Of a DNA stretch of 64,000 nt, positions 47,967-54,472 are shown one piece after another. The position numbers and the translations under genes were made by a program. Every line of letters starts with the position of its first letter. Within the stretch, counting starts at the first letter, position 1. The notes beneath the pieces are model-generated. The model worked only from the letters and a program-made list of their open reading frames with translations, was not told the DNA's origin and did no database searches. The DNA comes from Candidatus Poribacteria bacterium (GTDB lineage Bacteria; Poribacteria; WGA-4E; PCPOR2b). Where the stretch lies: positions 1 to 64,000 of the forward strand of contig JAJECO010000053.1 of assembly GCA_022822005.1 (NCBI GenBank). Reading direction: 5' to 3'.

Positions 47967-48052
47967 TTTGAAGCGTTATGACATATTATGTCAAAACGCC
48001 CCCAAAGGTGGTTGGTATTTTTATTAGTTGGATGGTATTTTATAATTGCGAC

Positions 48053-48250
48053 TAGGATAGATAGTGATGATGGCTCCGAGTTACCGCTCGGAACCACCTT
48101 GGAGCAACACGAGACACAACCTCGAATCGCTTCGTCATTGTTAGGCATTCACCCTAACAATTATTTTATAGTATAACCCTTTTAGCCACCTGTTTCTACC
48201 TAAAACAAAGGGCGGCGCGATTCGGGATTACCCATCATGCAGCCCTTTTT
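48053..48250 (+). ncRNA. Leader RNA candidate, copy 1, upstream of a secreted-peptide gene
   Basis: A TATAAT lies at 48041-48046. From about 48053 to the T-run at 48250 lies a conserved stretch shared with 50452-50629. Shared features are a CTCCGAG hairpin, the segment CGAATCGCTTCGTCATTGTT, a TGTTAGG/CCTAACA stem, an ATAGTATA tract and a terminator-like stem (GGGCGGC/GCAGCCC plus T5). The copies differ in stem positions but keep the hairpins. No protein frame is conserved here. It may be a regulatory leader, a small RNA or an attenuator. Confidence 0.5.
48210..48250 (+). terminator. Terminator-like hairpin before the first secreted-peptide gene
   Basis: GGGCGGC (48210-48216) pairs with GCAGCCC (48239-48245), with one mismatch and a 22-base loop, followed by TTTTT. 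It lies 41 bases before the ATG at 48291, so it would end the leader unless read through. The paired second copy (50596-50629) has a perfect stem. Confidence 0.5.
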
Positions 48251-48290
48251 CTGTTTTTAGATGGAAACATGGCACTTCAGGAGAGAAACG

Positions 48291-48632
48291 ATGTCAGTAA
48301 AAGAACGCTTCAAAACGTTAGTGTTTGCTGTTAGCCTATTGTCCATCGGGCTTGTTGGTAATTTCCCCCCGCTTTTGTTTGAGGCTGAAGCAGGCGCAGA
48401 CAAGAAGATAAAGATAACAAATTATATAAAATATTACGATGCAGGTGGTGCTTACTGCGCTAACCTTTCAGGACCTGTAACCTCCTATGAGCCAGTTGTA
48501 TACAACGGATATGGTCACTACTATAACTACCATATCATGGGTCAATCAGGACACCCCAATGGTCACGGTTATTTGGTCACGGGAAAATACGTGATTCATA
48601 CTGTTTTTAACATTTCCAGTTGTTATACTTAA
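48291..48632 (+). CDS. Small secreted Gly/Tyr/His-rich protein
   Basis: A 113-residue protein with a signal peptide (about 1-35, ending FEAEAGA) and a mature part rich in Tyr, Gly and His, with two cysteines (in GGAYCANLSG and at the end, SSCYT). The strand-turn-strand pattern (YNGYGHYYNYHIMG, PNGHGYLVTGKY) suggests an all-beta mini-domain, possibly metal-binding. AGGAGAG precedes the ATG at 48291, so the longer frame from 48261 is not used. It follows leader copy 1. No known family is recognised. The position equals that of the six-cysteine peptide in the second copy. Confidence 0.7.
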   Translation: MSVKERFKTLVFAVSLLSIGLVGNFPPLLFEAEAGADKKIKITNYIKYYDAGGAYCANLSGPVTSYEPVVYNGYGHYYNYHIMGQSGHPNGHGYLVTGKYVIHTVFNISSCYT

Positions 48633-48661
48633 GCACTTTAGCATCGTTAGAAAGATAGGCA

Positions 48662-48697
48662 GCCCAGCCTCTACCAGCGTCTCCGTAGAGGCTGGGC
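48662..48697. repeat. 13-bp perfect stem-loop
   Basis: GCCCAGCCTCTAC (48662-48674) and GTAGAGGCTGGGC (48685-48697) form a 13-bp perfect stem over a 10-base loop. There is no T-run. It lies 30 bases after the peptide stop and may end or stabilise that transcript. Confidence 0.65.
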
Positions 48698-48797
48698 GTC
48701 AGACGTCTGCCGTCACAGCGGTAAAATCTTCAAACGAGAATAGTATGTGACAAGGGGAAACACACATTTCAGCGATTTCAGAAGGGACGGTATTTTG

Positions 48798-49871
48798 ATG
48801 CGAAAGTTTATTCTATTTATGTCAGTGATAGTCGTTCTAATAGCAGGCGGGATTTTCTACTTAAACGAGGAAAAAAAGCACTTTATAGAAAATCTACTTC
48901 AATCCCCTGTAGCTGTAAACCAATCTATTGACAAATCCTCCTCATCGGGAAATGAAATGTTTGAAGTGGATGGGGAGAGATTCATTCCTGAAGACGGCGT
49001 GCATGAGACACTTCCACAGGAGCAGACCGCAACAGCAGAAAAAACGTCTTCAGAAACGCCCTCTCCGGACGAGAAAGCGGACGAGAAAGCAGATTTTGTC
49101 CGCGACCAATGGATTGAAATGTTTGGAGACATTCCAGAGGTCCATGCCGCCTCCGAATACATGCGAAAAATATACAAGAAGGAACGACATATACCCATTA
49201 ATGAAGTGATTTCTGGCTTAGAAGCGTCACATTACCTTTTCCCAAACGGTGGGCATGGAATACTCTTGGAAATGCGAAAATCTCAGAAAGCACTGGGGAT
49301 CCACGAGGTTGAGTTCATATATGAGGAGGATCCTGAGAATGTAAGGTATGCGGAGAATCTTGAGGTGATTTATTTAAATTCCCCTGAGCCTTTTCCGTCC
49401 CATCCCCCTGCATCTGATAGTGTTTCTTCAGGAAGTATTGATGAGGATATAGATGTTCTGCCGGCTCGCTCTGAGGGAACCCCTGTAATGCCAGAATCTA
49501 AGACCTCCGTCATGTCTGAGCATGTTCACCACGAAGATGGGCATGCACACGAAACACAAACTATCAAAACACCTGCGCCGGCAGCTGCTAAAGGCGTTGA
49601 AGCAGACGGTTGGGTGGGATTATCGTCTGAACAACGGGAGCGGGCGAAACGGTTATTTGACGAATATGGCACAACGGAGGGGCTTCGTCGGTTGAAGGAG
49701 TCTGACCCGGAAGCGGCGCGGCGGTTTGAGTCCGATCCCGATTCCATCGAGGATGCCGAGAATCGGCATAAATCGAGATCCCGACGAGTCGGGACAGGGC
49801 GGGAGCGTCGTCCGGTGCCTTCCCGTGATGTGCCTGATGGGGGGCAACCGGAATCAGGATCAAAAGATTAA
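48798..49871 (+). CDS. Membrane-anchored protein with C-terminal EGLRRL motif
   Basis: A 357-residue protein with an N-terminal membrane anchor (residues 5-22) and a long extracytoplasmic part. A structured section (about 85-195: PEVHAASEYMRKIYKK...) is followed by a low-complexity His/Glu/Pro region with HVHHEDGHAHE near 255. The C-terminal domain (about 285-325) has the pattern LFDEYGTTEGLRRLKESDPE. The same domain is seen in the 51877 protein. The last 30 residues contain a palindromic repeat (TCCCGAC-ga-GTCGGGA, 49779-49794) read in frame, so the true end may have been altered. ATG 48798 is used; GTG 48747 is possible. Confidence 0.68.
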   Translation: MRKFILFMSVIVVLIAGGIFYLNEEKKHFIENLLQSPVAVNQSIDKSSSSGNEMFEVDGERFIPEDGVHETLPQEQTATAEKTSSETPSPDEKADEKADFVRDQWIEMFGDIPEVHAASEYMRKIYKKERHIPINEVISGLEASHYLFPNGGHGILLEMRKSQKALGIHEVEFIYEEDPENVRYAENLEVIYLNSPEPFPSHPPASDSVSSGSIDEDIDVLPARSEGTPVMPESKTSVMSEHVHHEDGHAHETQTIKTPAPAAAKGVEADGWVGLSSEQRERAKRLFDEYGTTEGLRRLKESDPEAARRFESDPDSIEDAENRHKSRSRRVGTGRERRPVPSRDVPDGGQPESGSKD

Positions 49872-49922
49872 CGCGATTTTCAGGATTAAGCGGTTGTTAC
49901 CCAAGCTATCCTGATACAGACT

Positions 49923-49965
49923 GGGGGTATATCTTCGGAATTTGAAGAATATGCCCCCTTTTTTT
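49923..49965 (+). terminator. Intrinsic terminator, copy 1
   Basis: GGGGGTATATCTTC (49923-49936) pairs with GAAGAATATGCCCCC (49944-49958) with one bulge, and is followed by seven T. It is the same kind of element as 54125-54163. Confidence 0.82.
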
Positions 49966-49981
49966 ATGTCTCGTCCCGCGT

Positions 49982-50012
49982 AGCAAGGATTTCGATTCGA
50001 TCGAAGTTTGCT
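49982..50012. repeat. Conserved post-terminator hairpin, copy 1
   Basis: AGCAA/TTGCT (49982-49986/50008-50012) surrounds TTTCGAT/ATCGAAG (49990-49996/50000-50006) with a TCG loop. The copy at 54180-54210 has the same shape but T-A is replaced by C-G at 49992/50004, a compensatory change. Confidence 0.55.
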
Positions 50013-50307
50013 CTTAGGGGTGGTGAATAGTTTTCCGATGTGTGCTGTAAAAAAGAGTAAGACGAGGACAGAAGCAGCTATCTGAGAGCGGTATGTCGGA
50101 GGGGCGAAAGTAGAGGTTCACAAGAGGGAAAATTCTTAAGTATCGGAAAGGCTGATATAAAAAGAAAGTGCAATACACGAAGCAAAACCGCAGCTGTTGA
50201 AAGTGAGGGGCGGGGTGGAAGAGGGGAGGGAAAATCTCAGATTCTCGGTACGGAGATTGGCTCAATTCGTCAAATCTCAAAAACAATGAAAAATTTATCA
50301 AAGTATT
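50013..50307. other. 295-bp purine-rich gap, no gene
   Basis: The + strand is rich in A and G. The opposite strand has a 95-codon frame (50014-50301), but it has no ribosome site and an F/P/S-rich translation typical of a purine-rich antisense; I do not accept it. The segment GGTGAA(T/C)AGTTTTCCGATGTG near 50021-50040 is shared with 54220-54239. Confidence 0.4.
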
Positions 50308-50344
50308 TTCTTCAACTTGAAACTATTTGTTTCAAGTTGAAGAA
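50308..50344. repeat. 16-bp perfect stem-loop upstream of leader copy 2
   Basis: TTCTTCAACTTGAAAC (50308-50323) and GTTTCAAGTTGAAGAA (50329-50344) form a 16-bp perfect stem with a TATTT loop. It lies directly before the promoter at 50352 and may be an operator or a two-way terminator. Confidence 0.7.
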
Positions 50345-50351
50345 TTCAAAT

Positions 50352-50380
50352 TTGCAGCTGCACATTTTTTGTTGTATAAT
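50352..50380 (+). promoter_or_regulatory. Promoter of leader copy 2
   Basis: TTGCAG (50352-50357) and a perfect TATAAT (50375-50380) are 17 bases apart. Transcription would start near 50387. Confidence 0.6.
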
Positions 50381-50386
50381 CGGACA

Positions 50387-50629
50387 TTAGAAAGGAAAAT
50401 GGTCCAGTGGGCCGGTTTCCAGCTTTCTAATCAAGGATATTCCTTGAGTTTTGTGGGAGCTCCGAGTTGCCGCTCGAAGCCCCCTGAAGCAACACGAGAC
50501 ACAACCTCGAATCGCTTCGTCATTGTTAGGGTGAACGCCTAACAATTGTTTGATAGTATACCCTTTGATGCCATTCGTTTCAATCGAAAACAAGGGGGCT
50601 GCGCGATTTGAGGACGCAGCCCTTTTTTT
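50387..50629 (+). ncRNA. Leader RNA candidate, copy 2
   Basis: This stretch from the promoter to the terminator (50596-50629) holds the conserved block 50462-50570 shared with copy 1. The stem TGTTAGG/CCTAACA reappears (50525-50545), but its loop GTGAACG resembles the reverse complement of the copy-1 loop (CATTCAC), as if the hairpin were inverted. The transcript should end 38 bases before the peptide ATG, unless read through. Confidence 0.5.
50596..50629 (+). terminator. Terminator before the second secreted-peptide gene
   Basis: GGGCTGCG (50596-50603) pairs perfectly with CGCAGCCC (50615-50622) over an 11-base loop, then seven T. It ends leader copy 2 and is 38 bases upstream of the ATG at 50668, consistent with attenuation or with a free small RNA. 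Confidence 0.85.
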
Positions 50630-50667
50630 GTTTTCGGTCGGGACGGTGGTAATGAGGAGATTTGAGT

Positions 50668-50913
50668 ATGTTAAGTTTTCGGCGTTTTATAGCAATGTTT
50701 CTGATTATCGCGTTAGTCGCTGTCGTTTTCTATGTACAAGAGGTTAAGGCGGATCCTTGTGAAGACGCCATGGATTTGTGTAAATCATATTGGGATTTTG
50801 CAGATCTCGTATGTGACCATTATGGCCATTCCTCCCTTACGTGTTTAGCGGCAATAGATTATACGATTCAAGTCTGTGCATACTATATTGCTCGGCATTG
50901 TAATACAGCATAA
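50668..50913 (+). CDS. Six-cysteine small secreted peptide, copy A
   Basis: An 81-residue precursor with a signal peptide (about 1-28, ending VKA) and a mature part of about 53 residues. Its cysteine spacing is C-x6-C-x10-C-x9-C-x10-C-x7-C, nearly the same as in the 53316 peptide. Shared residues include LC, VCD-x-YG and CAY. Three disulfides are likely, giving a small stable fold. No known family is recognised. GAGGAG precedes ATG 50668. Its stop TAA is formed by the left end of the IS at 50911; precise loss of the IS would restore TAG, so the protein end is unchanged. Confidence 0.78.
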   Translation: MLSFRRFIAMFLIIALVAVVFYVQEVKADPCEDAMDLCKSYWDFADLVCDHYGHSSLTCLAAIDYTIQVCAYYIARHCNTA

Positions 50914-51837
50914 CGCAAGTTGCTAGTGGATTATTTAATAAAGAGTGTAATCATAGTAGTAATTAGAAACAAAACCACCTTAATCTCAAATCCAGCGGCA
51001 GTGACCGCATGAATAGCACGTGGCATGCGTTGGGTGATTAGACTATTTGTAACCTCCACCTGCTTCCTGCGGTGATGGTGTAGGTAAACTTTCCATGGTG
51101 GATATTGCCGCTTACTGTTTCTCTTACGCAACGGTTTGAGCAGGATGCCAGCTTCAGTCAACGCATCTTCAATCCCATAATTACAGTAGGCTTTATCTGC
51201 ATAAACAACCGCTCCGTGAGGTAAGTCAAAAGGATAACACCGCACCCCCCCAACATCGGCAAAGCTACCCGGTGTTAAGAAAAACTCAACCGGTACACCA
51301 CTTTCAGTGACCATCAGATGCAGTTTGAGTCCATAGAAGTATCTACGTTTACTGGGTATCACCCCTCGCCACACTTCACCTTGATACCGTTTGGCACCAG
51401 AGATACGAATGGGGTCACATGCTGGGACGGGATAAGAGTCAATCGCATAGATTTGATGCGAGTTTTGTGCTTTACAGTCTGTGGCAAGGGAGTCAAAAAG
51501 TGTCTGAAACATCGGGGCAATTTGGTGGAGTCTTCGGTTGAATCGTGCTTTACTGAGCATATTAGGAATATACCCCTGTTCTTTGAGGACCTGGCGTGCC
51601 GTCTGTTGATTGCCACCGAACAGTTCTACTGCTACTAATGCCGTTGTCATCACTTCGGCGGCAGACATTTTGGTTCGTGGGTCATCTTGGTATCCCTGTT
51701 GAATTAACAGATCGTCACAAAGCGTATAAAATACTACAATTACTAAGTCCATGGGATTCTCCTGTTTATCAGTGTTGTTATGGATAACAAACACTCTAAC
51801 GGAAATTCCATGGATATTCAAATAGCAACTTGCGTTA
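50911..51837. mobile_element. IS982-like insertion sequence (927 bp)
   Basis: The ends are perfect 15-bp inverted repeats TAACGCAAGTTGCTA (50911-50925) and TAGCAACTTGCGTTA (51823-51837). They begin with TA, which may be the target duplication. The single gene inside is a DDE transposase. The IS appears complete and recent, since both ends are intact. The 167-bp element at 5494-5660 shares these ends. Confidence 0.85.
50931..51752 (-). CDS. IS982-family-like DDE transposase
   Basis: A 273-residue transposase. The first catalytic Asp is in YAIDSYPVPACDPIR (near residue 120), the second likely in ADKAYCNYG (near 197), and the final Glu in the Lys/Glu-rich C-terminal region. The pattern GVIPSKRRYFYGLKLHLMVTESG fits IS982-type enzymes. 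I use ATG 51752, preceded by AGGAGA, instead of the longer frame from 51821. The frame is intact, so the element may be active. IS5-type remains an alternative label. Confidence 0.82.
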   Translation of the reverse strand: MDLVIVVFYTLCDDLLIQQGYQDDPRTKMSAAEVMTTALVAVELFGGNQQTARQVLKEQGYIPNMLSKARFNRRLHQIAPMFQTLFDSLATDCKAQNSHQIYAIDSYPVPACDPIRISGAKRYQGEVWRGVIPSKRRYFYGLKLHLMVTESGVPVEFFLTPGSFADVGGVRCYPFDLPHGAVVYADKAYCNYGIEDALTEAGILLKPLRKRNSKRQYPPWKVYLHHHRRKQVEVTNSLITQRMPRAIHAVTAAGFEIKVVLFLITTMITLFIK

Positions 51838-51876
51838 GCATAGTAGACTGATGAGTCACAATAGGAGCGTCAAAGC

Positions 51877-53010
51877 ATGAAAAAAAAGTGTTTTTATATG
51901 GGTGGCACCTTGTTGATAGGGGTAATTGTTTGTGTATCGGTGTTTTTTTTACTTCGAGAGCGCAAGGGAAATGAGCTTCAGCGCCAACTTCCCCCCACTA
52001 CCGTAAGGCATCGGAATAGGGAGGCAAGCCCAAATAAAAACCTCCCACAACAGGGAAAAAACCCTGATGCCCGCCCGATTCCTATTGAGAAAATCATACA
52101 GCAAAACAAAAGTCAGATGATGTCCATATTGAGCGAAAAACAACTCGCAAACCCTGAGATACAAAAACGGCTTGCGCTTATGGATTCGCCAGCGTACCGC
52201 GAATTTATGAAAGACGCTTATGCAACAGGACTGAATCAACGGAAAATGAACGACTTTTGGGAATCGCAAGGATTCAGAGTAAAACGGGAGTACCCTGAGA
52301 TGTTCCGTCATTACTTTCCCACCGGTGAACCAGAGGATTATGACCAGAAGATGCGTCTAAAGATAGCGGAGATGTTTCTCACCCAAGAACCGGTAGACTT
52401 GACAGACCCACTAGCAGCAGCTCGCCAACGTCTTAACGTCGTTAGCGAGCTGATAAAAGACAAGACTGATGCGGTGTGGTATCTTGGACGTTTCGGTGAC
52501 GAGTGGGACGGTCCAATGCAAGGGGTTATGGGAGTGGAACAGGGAGAGGAGCGCAGAAACGCTGCAACTGAATGGATGATTGACATACAGCGAAACGCGG
52601 CGAGTATTGTAGAAGCCGCAGAGACAGCAGGCGTTGGTCAGGCATCAGCTCCTTCATGGGATATGTCGTCCGTCGTAGAAAGCTCCTCAGCACCTCATAG
52701 CGAAACGGAAGTGTCCACTACGGTTGACACATCAGAGCGGGATCCAATGACTGGCGCAGAGATTGAAAGATCGTTGACACGTCAGCCGCCCGATATACCC
52801 CAAAATCAAAAGCCTGATACACCCAGCGAGCTTCCAAGCAATTTGGAAGCTTCCCTGAAATCGCAGTTTTCATCAGAGCGTTTCGATCGGGCGATGTCTA
52901 CTTTAGAGCAGTATGGACCCGAAGAAGGGCTCCGCCGTCTTCGTCAAAGCGATCCAGACTTTGCCAAGCAAGTAGAACAACATCGTAACCGAGAGGAGGT
53001 TTCCAAATGA
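51877..53010 (+). CDS. Membrane-anchored protein with C-terminal EGLRRL motif
   Basis: A 377-residue protein with an N-terminal membrane anchor (residues 8-26) and a long extracytoplasmic part. A predicted helical domain (about 68-255) carries KRLALMDSPAYREFMKDAYATG and DYDQKMRLKIAEMFLTQEP. A low-complexity Ser/Thr/Pro linker leads to the C-terminal domain LEQYGPEEGLRRLRQSDPDF (about 342-361), which it shares with the 48798 protein. The middle domains are not obviously alike, so the shared tail may be a common binding module. Its stop overlaps the next gene's start (ATGA). GGAG precedes the ATG. Confidence 0.68.
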   Translation: MKKKCFYMGGTLLIGVIVCVSVFFLLRERKGNELQRQLPPTTVRHRNREASPNKNLPQQGKNPDARPIPIEKIIQQNKSQMMSILSEKQLANPEIQKRLALMDSPAYREFMKDAYATGLNQRKMNDFWESQGFRVKREYPEMFRHYFPTGEPEDYDQKMRLKIAEMFLTQEPVDLTDPLAAARQRLNVVSELIKDKTDAVWYLGRFGDEWDGPMQGVMGVEQGEERRNAATEWMIDIQRNAASIVEAAETAGVGQASAPSWDMSSVVESSSAPHSETEVSTTVDTSERDPMTGAEIERSLTRQPPDIPQNQKPDTPSELPSNLEASLKSQFSSERFDRAMSTLEQYGPEEGLRRLRQSDPDFAKQVEQHRNREEVSK

Positions 53011-53261
53011 AAGTGTTTATGATAACGTGGATAGCCCTCTGCTTCTTGGTGGTTGTGGGATTGTTCATTGCGTATGCAACAGACAACTTTCCCGGTGTCC
53101 CCGCTCCCCAATCCCGTTCCGAGTCGCCCGATAAATCGGGACAGGTTGGGTTGGAAACGGAGGAGGAGTGTTCGCCGTGTGAAGAAAATCTGAAACGGCT
53201 AAAAGAGGTAATAGAACAGGCAGAGCGCAAGCGACAAGCACGCAAAAGCCTAGCACAGTAA
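53007..53261 (+). CDS. Small single-pass membrane protein with CxxC
   Basis: An 84-residue protein. One membrane segment (residues 5-23) is followed by a short low-complexity linker, the pair ECSPCEEN and a basic helix (LKRLKEVIEQAERKRQARKS). The linker is encoded partly by a CCCGAT-aa-ATCGGG palindrome (53127-53140), a sign that a REP-type repeat inserted in frame. Its ATG overlaps the preceding stop by four bases, so it is translationally coupled. The CxxC could bind a metal or be redox active. No family is recognised. Confidence 0.62.
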   Translation: MKVFMITWIALCFLVVVGLFIAYATDNFPGVPAPQSRSESPDKSGQVGLETEEECSPCEENLKRLKEVIEQAERKRQARKSLAQ

Positions 53262-53315
53262 GATAGTCTTATTCTGTATTGACAGTTCCCTAACTACCAA
53301 AGAAAGGATTTTCAC

Positions 53316-53570
53316 ATGAAATCACGCAGTTTGAAAGTAGCGATTCTGATAATAGTGATTGTGTCAGTCGGATTTGGACTGTTGCCAAGTCCATTGGTTC
53401 AGGATGCCAACGCGGTAAGTTGTGACGATGCCATAAAATTATGTGAAGCGGATTGGAGGATGACAGATATCGTATGTGATTTTTATGGCTATGACTCATC
53501 GGTGTGTTACGCGGCAGTACTTGATACCTCTGAATATTGTGCATACCTATTTTGGTATTGTGAAGACTAA
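53316..53570 (+). CDS. Six-cysteine small secreted peptide, copy B
   Basis: An 84-residue precursor with a signal peptide (about 1-33, ending ANA) and a mature part of about 51 residues. The cysteine spacing is C-x6-C-x10-C-x9-C-x10-C-x6-C, like copy A at 50668 except for the last loop. Shared positions include DA(I/M), LC, D(I/L)VCD-x-YG, AA and CAY. AAAGGA precedes the ATG. It is encoded 54 bases after the CxxC membrane protein and 8 bases before the beta-repeat gene, so these are likely co-transcribed. Confidence 0.78.
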   Translation: MKSRSLKVAILIIVIVSVGFGLLPSPLVQDANAVSCDDAIKLCEADWRMTDIVCDFYGYDSSVCYAAVLDTSEYCAYLFWYCED

Positions 53571-53578
53571 GGCGAAAG

Positions 53579-54097
53579 ATGAATCATAAACAAAAGGCTT
53601 TATATACCCTATTTGGTGCTGCAATTATGCTGATGGGGTTAAGTGTAGGGTCACTCGTTTGTCCCCCGGTGATTGCACTAAAAGAAAAAGTCCTCGATGA
53701 GATTTACTGCACTGGACTAACGGTGATCAATTCGTCGGGTGAGCCTGCGATCGTCTTACGCACCGATGAAACATTGGGCAACGGGCTTGTTATCCACACG
53801 CCTCGGGGTGAGCCTGCGCTGCTCTTGGTCGCGGATGAAACCGCAAACAGTGTTGCTGTTACTGACAAGTCGGGTGAGCCTGCGGTTCTCTTACGCACCA
53901 GTGATTTGGCGAATCGTGTTATCGTCCGCAGTCCTTTAGGGAAAGATGGGGTTCGTTTATCTGCGGGTAAAGTTGCCAATCGGGTAACGGTATCCAATCC
54001 TGAGGAGACAAATGCGGTACAATTATACGCCGATGAAGTTGCCAATCGTGTTACCGTTCACAACCAAGTGGGTATCATCAGGTGGGAAGCACCGTAA
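53579..54097 (+). CDS. Membrane-anchored beta-repeat protein
   Basis: A 172-residue protein. A signal or anchor segment (about residues 9-34) precedes five 22-residue repeats (about 48-160) with the pattern V-x4-GEPA-x2-L-x5-AN-x-V. The DNA GGGTGAGCCTGCG occurs three times (about 53739, 53810 and 53870). The repeat period and V/L/G pattern suggest a right-handed beta-helix or beta-solenoid. It ends in a short tail, VGIIRWEAP. It follows copy B of the six-cysteine peptide by 8 bases and closes the island. Function is unknown; adhesive or scaffold roles are typical for such repeats. Confidence 0.68.
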   Translation: MNHKQKALYTLFGAAIMLMGLSVGSLVCPPVIALKEKVLDEIYCTGLTVINSSGEPAIVLRTDETLGNGLVIHTPRGEPALLLVADETANSVAVTDKSGEPAVLLRTSDLANRVIVRSPLGKDGVRLSAGKVANRVTVSNPEETNAVQLYADEVANRVTVHNQVGIIRWEAP

Positions 54098-54124
54098 CAG
54101 GCAATCTCAATCGAATCAGAATAG

Positions 54125-54163
54125 GGGTGTATCTTTGGATTTCTAAGGATACACCCTTTTTTT
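54125..54163 (+). terminator. Intrinsic terminator, copy 2
   Basis: GGGTGTATC (54125-54133) pairs perfectly with GATACACCC (54148-54156), followed by seven T. It ends the island operon. Confidence 0.85.
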
Positions 54164-54179
54164 ATGTCTCGTCCCGCGA

Positions 54180-54210
54180 AGCGAGGACTCCGATTCGATC
54201 GGAGCTTGCT
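54180..54210. repeat. Conserved post-terminator hairpin, copy 2
   Basis: AGCGA/TTGCT (with one G-T pair) surrounds CTCCGAT/ATCGGAG (54188-54194/54198-54204) with a TCG loop. It matches copy 1 (49982-50012) in shape, length and neighbours. The remaining gap up to 54472 shows no gene; TCCCGAC-ga-GTCGG lies at 54274-54287. Confidence 0.55.
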
Positions 54211-54472
54211 CTTGGCTTGGTGAACAGTTTTCCGATGTGTGCTGTGAACGATGGACGGGTTCCGTTTCGAGAATCCCGACGAGTCGGAATTAGTTTGCGG
54301 GGTGGATCACAATCTAACAGATCGTGCTACAAATTTGGGTGCGTATGGGTATCGAGCAATGTTGTGCCTTGAATTACGGATATGCCTCACATAAATGTCA
54401 GCATATCCTAACAACTTGTGTTAAAATATCATTCCTAATCCAATAATAACCCATTTCAGGAGGAGTATATTT

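Follow-up and report, generated by a model that had tools for sequence, protein, structure and literature searches.

Layout of the locus

The window analysed here comprises 64,000 nt (contig C54; JAJECO010000053.1, positions 1 to 64,000) of the 6.0-Mb draft genome of a Candidatus Poribacteria bacterium (GCA_022822005.1); the named records matching its close relatives are all from Candidatus Poribacteria. It contains two neighbouring modules in which a conserved leader RNA, the main subject of this work, precedes genes for a small secreted protein and for a membrane-anchored protein that we call EGLRRL after a motif in its C-terminal domain. An earlier note on this DNA had described the duplication, and both copies are present at about the positions it gave, each with a leader, a terminator, an open reading frame (ORF) with a signal peptide, an EGLRRL gene and an end-of-operon terminator. 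The modules are flanked by an ABC-transporter permease gene (PF00528; 46239-47966) on the 5′ side and by a gene for a xylose-isomerase-like protein (PF01261; 54473-55237) on the 3′ side. The interval between these two genes varies among relatives, with one module each in genomes G002 and G004 and two in G003. The features of both modules are on the forward strand unless stated otherwise.

The leader of copy 1 (48065-48255; alignment A3) consists of the helices P1, P2 and P3, a linker and an intrinsic terminator, and matches covariance model R2 with 172.6 bits (E 2.9e-47). It is followed at 48260-48285 by the 3′ strand of a further helix, P4 (GATGGAAACATGGC, pairing with GCCACCUGUUUCUAC in the linker), and the Shine-Dalgarno sequence that serves gene 1 (48291-48632), whose start lies 35 nt past the leader match. 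This gene encodes a small secreted protein of 113 amino acids with a signal peptide and two cysteines in the mature part, for which no match was found in Pfam or NCBIfam. Between genes 1 and 2 we read from the sequence a GC-rich hairpin of 12 bp without a U-run (CCCAGCCTCTAC...GTAGAGGCTGGG, 48660-48700), by which the ratio of the secreted protein to the EGLRRL protein in this copy could be set. Gene 2 (48798-49871; alignment A4 and phylum search) encodes a membrane-anchored EGLRRL protein of subtype 1, and an intrinsic terminator, whose stem is kept in relatives, ends the operon (GGGGGTATATCTTC...GAAGAATATGCCCCC-T7, 49933-49966).

In copy 2, a probable promoter read from the sequence (TTGCAG-17-TATAAT, 50352-50380) lies ~70 nt upstream of a leader with the same parts (50451-50632; R2 189.1 bits, E 4.3e-52). 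Gene 1 (50668-50913) encodes a secreted peptide with a signal peptide and six cysteines (six-Cys; A10 family, E 1.9e-21). Behind it, on the reverse strand, lies an IS982-family insertion sequence (IS; 50911-51837; NF033520, E 2e-49) with 24-bp terminal inverted repeats (I2) and the target duplication GCA, and because this duplication restores them, the last codons and the stop of the peptide gene are unchanged. In G003 the same IS is found behind the first gene (L041, G003:C68, at the locus end) in the orientation opposite to that in the window, and was therefore probably inserted independently. Copy 2 continues with gene 2 (51877-53010; alignment A4), encoding a membrane-anchored EGLRRL protein of subtype 2, a gene for a small CxxC membrane protein (53007-53261), orthologues of which, with CSPC or CGCC, come after EGLRRL genes in relatives, a second six-Cys secreted peptide gene (53316-53570; A10, E 2.3e-26), and a gene for an exported protein of ~22-amino-acid beta-strand repeats (53579-54097; repeat families D1 and D5). 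The repeat consensus is xxVTVxNxxGexAvxLyADE, and orthologues of this protein, present in G004 and G001, sit there at other leader loci. An intrinsic terminator read from the sequence (54124-54163) closes the operon.

The additional components that the earlier note had listed for copy 2, namely the CxxC protein, the second six-Cys peptide, the beta-repeat protein and an IS, are thus all present. Its small secreted first gene holds for both copies as far as secretion is concerned, that of copy 1 being a different secreted protein and not a six-Cys peptide. The hairpin described behind the terminators as a recurring RNA element did not survive closer inspection: the tail blocks containing it (49967-50051 and 54164-54248) are the only 2 copies in the genome, and outside it the block was found only in two relatives, at the corresponding locus, one of these relatives not having kept the hairpin. 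We therefore rejected this locus-specific block as a second RNA element.

A structured leader between promoter and ribosome-binding site

The leader is a structured RNA of ~190 nt in which a promoter is followed by P1, P2 (GAAGCAAMACGAG...CUCGAAUCGCUUC), the optional P3, AGUAUAACCCUUU, the linker GCCAUUnGUUUCRAUC, the terminator (AAAGGGGCUGCGCGAUUCGGG...CGCAGCCCC-U6), GGUYGRnACnAUGGC, the Shine-Dalgarno sequence and the start codon. Its fold far exceeds chance, with z = -4.0 for the copy 2 leader and -7.2 for the leader on contig C77. We searched 85 Poribacteria genomes, the set used for all phylum searches, with covariance models, R1 built from four leader copies and then R2 from twenty, and found the leader in 14 of them, distributed over three families and strongest in the window's own genus. 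Within the window's genome there are 4 full copies, two of which lie outside this locus, and one fragment. A pattern scan of 85,000 species returned 17 matches, 16 in Poribacteria and one in Bradymonadales (L070), the latter discounted as it fits hairpin P2 only; among these species the leader is effectively confined to Poribacteria. When the window and 8 related loci were compared with Rfam, no family, including T-box and c-di-GMP-I/II, scored above its gathering score; a permissive scan of 47980-50700 gave sub-threshold noise only, and a match to isrD (50570-50628) was rejected as below the cut-off and corresponding to the terminator region. Our literature search found no riboswitch described for Poribacteria.

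Several variants of the leader deserve mention. The P3 hairpin of copy 1 (48137-48161) resembles the reverse complement of that of copy 2 (50522-50546; 96%), as if inverted. A reading of P3 (GTTAGG...CCTAAC) as an integron attC site was rejected, as the core-box order is inverted and P3 is missing from several leaders. The two full leaders outside the locus (L008/L003, G000:C63, and L009, G000:C77) adjoin IS3-family remnants. Degenerate leaders retain the linker and terminator only (L054:6820-6921, G000:C20) or, before a six-Cys/EGLRRL pair, the pre-Shine-Dalgarno half of P4 and the Shine-Dalgarno sequence (L138:5885-6038, G003:C48). At L052, L053 and L068 (G039, G031, G041), a promoter is followed by P1-like and P2 hairpins with UAUAAC and no terminator, possibly representing a second, shorter RNA class.

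Two mutually exclusive structures are conserved in the leader, with statistics on structure and covariation resting on 20-21 leader sequences. In the ground state, formed by P1, P2, P3 and the terminator, 90% of positions are paired and 12 pairs show two-sided changes, compared with 4.9 in shuffles. In the antiterminator, P2 gives its 3′ strand to a helix with the 5′ arm and loop of the terminator, a helix that is incompatible with both P2 and the terminator; here, 97.5% of the alignment cells are paired, against at most 47.5% in slid controls. Alignment column 68 has two partners, column 44 in P2 and column 167 in the antiterminator, and the three columns changed together in two leaders of G006, which is the strongest single sign of a switch, even if one evolutionary event may account for it. 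The pairing CCCUUU::AAAGGG adds six pairs (91.7% paired) and is weaker evidence, since its covariation is no better than in shuffles. P4, finally, joins the linker GCCAUUnGUUUCRAUC to the nucleotides immediately upstream of the Shine-Dalgarno sequence and thereby spans the terminator; its mean duplex energy was -14.1 kcal/mol for cognate partners, -11.8 kcal/mol for swapped partners and -6.7 kcal/mol for shuffled sequences, with 1 of 20,000 permutations as good, and the pair counts agree with these energies.

Thermodynamic ensembles point in the same direction, the antiterminator being dominant before the 3′ arm of the terminator exists in 17 of 21 leaders and the terminator being dominant afterwards in 19 of 21. 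An antiterminator that forms first and a terminator that forms later are the usual kinetic logic of attenuators. Upstream, 18 of 21 promoters score at least 10 of 12 (3% of shuffles do so), the commonest form being TTGACA-17-TAnnAT at 12-14 nt before P1; in copy 1, TATAAT is preceded by a poor -35 box. Ribosome-mediated attenuation by a leader peptide was rejected, as no ORF is conserved across the leaders.

In nearly all copies that have a gene, the first ORF starts 29-46 nt past the terminator. The covariance-model search proposed in the earlier note did reveal a repeated association with genes for exported proteins: a hydrophobic N-terminus is encoded by 18 of 21 first genes, compared with 17 among the 49 ORFs of the window that reach 100 amino acids or more (Fisher p = 1.7e-4), a comparison that is rough because the background ORFs were called mechanically. 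The targets include small cysteine-containing proteins, lipoproteins, and coiled-coil and membrane-anchored proteins. As the leader also precedes exported proteins other than those of the module, we consider it a regulator and not a part of the protein machine, and as the targets share no metabolic pathway, the genes give no guess at a ligand.

Secreted peptides and their membrane-anchored partners

EGLRRL proteins are encoded in 54 of the 85 genomes, with up to 17 per genome, and share a membrane helix at the N-terminus, a linker predicted to be disordered and, at the C-terminus, a short helical domain that is conserved (YGxEEGLRRLrxSDPExA). An AlphaFold2 model of the protein encoded at 51877-53010 has the same layout, with an N-terminal transmembrane helix, disordered linkers and a helical C-terminal domain. 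Six-Cys peptides occur in 30 of the 85 genomes, and for 34 of the 44 peptides an EGLRRL gene is found at a distance of no more than 3 kb. Structure prediction, as suggested in the earlier note, returned a helical hairpin for the mature part of the peptide encoded at 53316-53570 (predicted local distance difference test, pLDDT, 95), the EGLRRL protein being modelled separately. The cysteine spacing in the window is symmetric (C-x6-C-x10-C-x9-C-x10-C-x6-C), and one family member (L127) lacks exactly Cys2 and Cys5; from the spacing, the modelled hairpin and this joint loss we predict three nested disulfide rungs, C1-C6, C2-C5 and C3-C4.

Within the window's genus, EGLRRL subtype 2 goes with six-Cys peptides and the CxxC protein and subtype 1 with other secreted proteins, and that the cargo type follows the EGLRRL subtype hints at a specific partnership; we infer that peptide and EGLRRL protein act together. 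Except for the transposase, the module proteins have no match in Pfam, NCBIfam, PADLOC or the PDB. Foldseek with the six-Cys and EGLRRL models gave nothing at E below 1, and no EGLRRL relative was found in viral contigs. The protein half of the system is a family of Poribacteria that has not been described before, in which secreted hairpin peptides go with membrane partners.

For its function, the bacteriocin/immunity, signalling and surface-display roles suggested in the earlier note are hypotheses, and sister genera provide some guidance. In genus g8, a six-Cys gene is followed by EGLRRL, by the genes for the CGCC protein and for an exported protein of ~265 amino acids, and then by that for the oligosaccharyltransferase STT3 (PF02516, E 5.8e-18), and at three loci a six-Cys gene is followed by STT3 without an EGLRRL gene. 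In genera g6 and g8, a genome may contain up to 12 STT3-like genes, several of which adjoin EGLRRL genes. The STT3/AglB/PglB oligosaccharyltransferases are homologous to neither of the two protein families. Among the matches listed, 14 of 128 EGLRRL genes have a listed STT3 gene no more than 3 kb away, where ~0.2 would be expected by our own estimate. The peptides may accordingly be exported substrates or parts of an STT3-glycosylated surface structure that is anchored or assembled by EGLRRL proteins, which we regard as a serious possibility short of even chance: this clustering, the g8 six-Cys genes placed directly before STT3 or in operons with EGLRRL, CGCC and STT3, and several copies per genome, as suits surface components, argue for it, but in the phylum search neither the window's genome nor most of its genus gave a match to STT3, and N-x-S/T sequons are present in some peptides only.

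Alternatively, the six-Cys peptides could be secreted antimicrobials with EGLRRL as a membrane-bound immunity or maturation partner. The small, predictedly disulfide-rich helical hairpin, mature parts that diverge under related signal peptides, a partner subtype that tracks the cargo, and the duplication and IS traffic at the locus are in line with such a bacteriocin-like function, whereas the module contains neither a transporter nor a modification enzyme nor any known immunity family and EGLRRL proteins often have no six-Cys gene nearby, making this role somewhat improbable. The closest likeness is to the glycocins (sublancin, glycocin F and the three-disulfide thermoglycocin; PMC12457901), which are likewise secreted helical hairpins with nested disulfides (predicted in our case) and C-x6-C at both outer ends, and which come with glycosyltransferase genes, paralleled here by such genes near relatives. 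In contrast to glycocins, the six-Cys precursors have a signal peptide and not a double-glycine leader, and their predicted third rung lies inside the hairpin, where that of the glycocin lies in the C-terminal loop. STT3, present only in relatives, is an oligosaccharyltransferase, unlike the glycocin enzymes, and neither a PCAT transporter nor a SunS/GccA-type enzyme or dedicated glycosyltransferase family was found in the module with Pfam and NCBIfam. A role in anti-phage defence received no PADLOC model match. On balance, the STT3 link makes a role at a glycosylated surface slightly likelier than one as bacteriocin or signal.

Sister genera also differ in the control of the peptides. A TGGCAC-N5-TTGC site, absent from the background, is found upstream of 12 of 30 six-Cys loci, and the g8 loci with such sigma-54-type promoters before six-Cys genes are L147, L149, L150, L153, L156, L157 and L160-L165, the last with an NtrC-like regulator beside it. 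A conserved leader-like RNA was looked for upstream of the g8 six-Cys genes and none was found. With the leader RNA in the window's lineage and sigma-54-type sites in g8, the same cargo would be conditionally controlled in both, by different means.

Discussion

The leader is probably a cis-acting transcription attenuator of Candidatus Poribacteria, and most likely an orphan riboswitch. The conservation of its structure, both mutually exclusive pairings, P4, its placement between promoter and Shine-Dalgarno sequence and the linkage of the genes can all be read from the compared sequences, and two features by which riboswitches are recognised, a conserved structured 5′ leader with compensatory changes and mutually exclusive structures in the expression platform, are found together. 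Transcription would start at the leader or just upstream, and P1 and P2 would fold first. During transcription of the terminator's 5′ arm, P2 could open and release its 3′ strand (CUCGAAUCGC) to pair with the newly made arm (GCGAUUCGAG), and this pairing, together with CCCUUU::AAAGGG, would block the terminator and switch the genes on. If a bound ligand or protein kept P1 and P2 from opening, the terminator would form and the genes would be off. In the read-through RNA, the linker would pair with the stretch before the ribosome-binding site (P4), leaving the site itself exposed. The switch would thus govern operons for exported proteins, here a small secreted protein that changes fast and is often predicted to be a helical hairpin with a disulfide ladder, together with its membrane-anchored EGLRRL partner. 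That attenuation takes place in the cell, that stabilised P1/P2 means off and that a ligand exists is what we infer from these structures.

The same attenuator might be governed by an RNA-binding protein, a transfer RNA (tRNA) or a trans-acting RNA instead of a small molecule. The regulated exported proteins share no pathway, as would fit a global protein regulator, and a protein could bind to the long stretches that are conserved but unpaired (AGUAUAACC, GUUUCRAUC); P4, however, accounts for GUUUCRAUC, neither the T-box nor any other known protein-binding leader gave a match, and a compact, highly conserved multi-helix domain before an expression platform is typical of a ligand aptamer, so that we consider such control rather unlikely. 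A stand-alone small RNA ending at the terminator, with the gene behind it incidental, is highly improbable: the element has its own promoter and terminator, and the copies on C63 and in G033 lack an intact downstream gene, but P4 joins the linker to, and covaries with, sequence past the terminator, nearly all copies are followed at 29-46 nt by a start codon with its Shine-Dalgarno sequence, and a conserved antiterminator would be pointless. The dispersed repeat beside unrelated genes that the earlier note had raised against itself has a negligible probability, for although the C63 and C77 copies lie beside IS remnants and IS982 lies inside copy 2, there are only 4 full copies per 6 Mb, their flanks are not shared and bear no terminal repeats or target duplications, and the element keeps its place between promoter and Shine-Dalgarno sequence, its orientation relative to the gene and its compensatory base changes.

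Several observations weigh against a riboswitch, or against its importance for the module. The triple covariation is limited to one genome with two paralogous leaders and may represent one evolutionary event, and the promoters of both window copies are weaker than those of relatives. A clear export signal is wanting in 3 of 21 first genes, and the leaders on C63 and in G033 have no intact gene downstream. Unlike those of most riboswitches, the downstream genes point to no metabolite. Genus g8 carries the same protein module without the leader RNA, which is therefore not essential to the module.

Compared with known leaders, riboswitches for cyclic di-GMP (c-di-GMP; RF01051, RF01786) are a precedent for the control of surface and secreted proteins by riboswitches, while the leader described here has a different conserved core and secondary structure and does not match them. 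T-box leaders (RF00230) likewise attenuate by terminator and antiterminator in the 5′ leader, but the targets here are not aminoacyl-tRNA synthetase or amino-acid genes and the T-box family gives no Rfam match. About 100 orphan riboswitch classes await their ligand (PMC10043782). With the candidates among them that have terminator platforms, the leader shares a compact structured 5′ domain, an exclusive antiterminator and terminator, confinement to a lineage and downstream genes of common character; it differs in having no Rfam match, in targeting exported proteins and not metabolic genes, and in the added P4 around the terminator.

The earlier note's reading of this locus thus stands in part: a coherent undescribed system is supported, as the leader recurs beside genes for exported proteins with fixed promoter and ribosome-binding-site spacing and the six-Cys and EGLRRL genes are linked across the phylum, while the tail does not recur and the leader is a regulator outside the protein machine. 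The leader itself is conserved as described, without being limited to the locus. More tentatively, and on the doubtful side when taken as a whole, the leader could be a new riboswitch class, confined to sponge-associated Poribacteria, that responds to a signal, which might come from the host or be a second messenger, and gates a changeable set of disulfide-laddered hairpin peptides with their EGLRRL partners, the same peptides being under sigma-54 control and modified by STT3 in sister genera.

With the probable attenuator, an uncultured phylum of sponge symbionts gains a concrete regulatory RNA that lends itself to testing. As the targets of this RNA are secreted and surface proteins, they are a place at which symbiont and host could signal to each other. 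In addition, two protein families, the six-Cys hairpins and the EGLRRL proteins, are defined here by their recurrence across the phylum and by their linkage to each other and to oligosaccharyltransferases, and belong to no family library that we searched.

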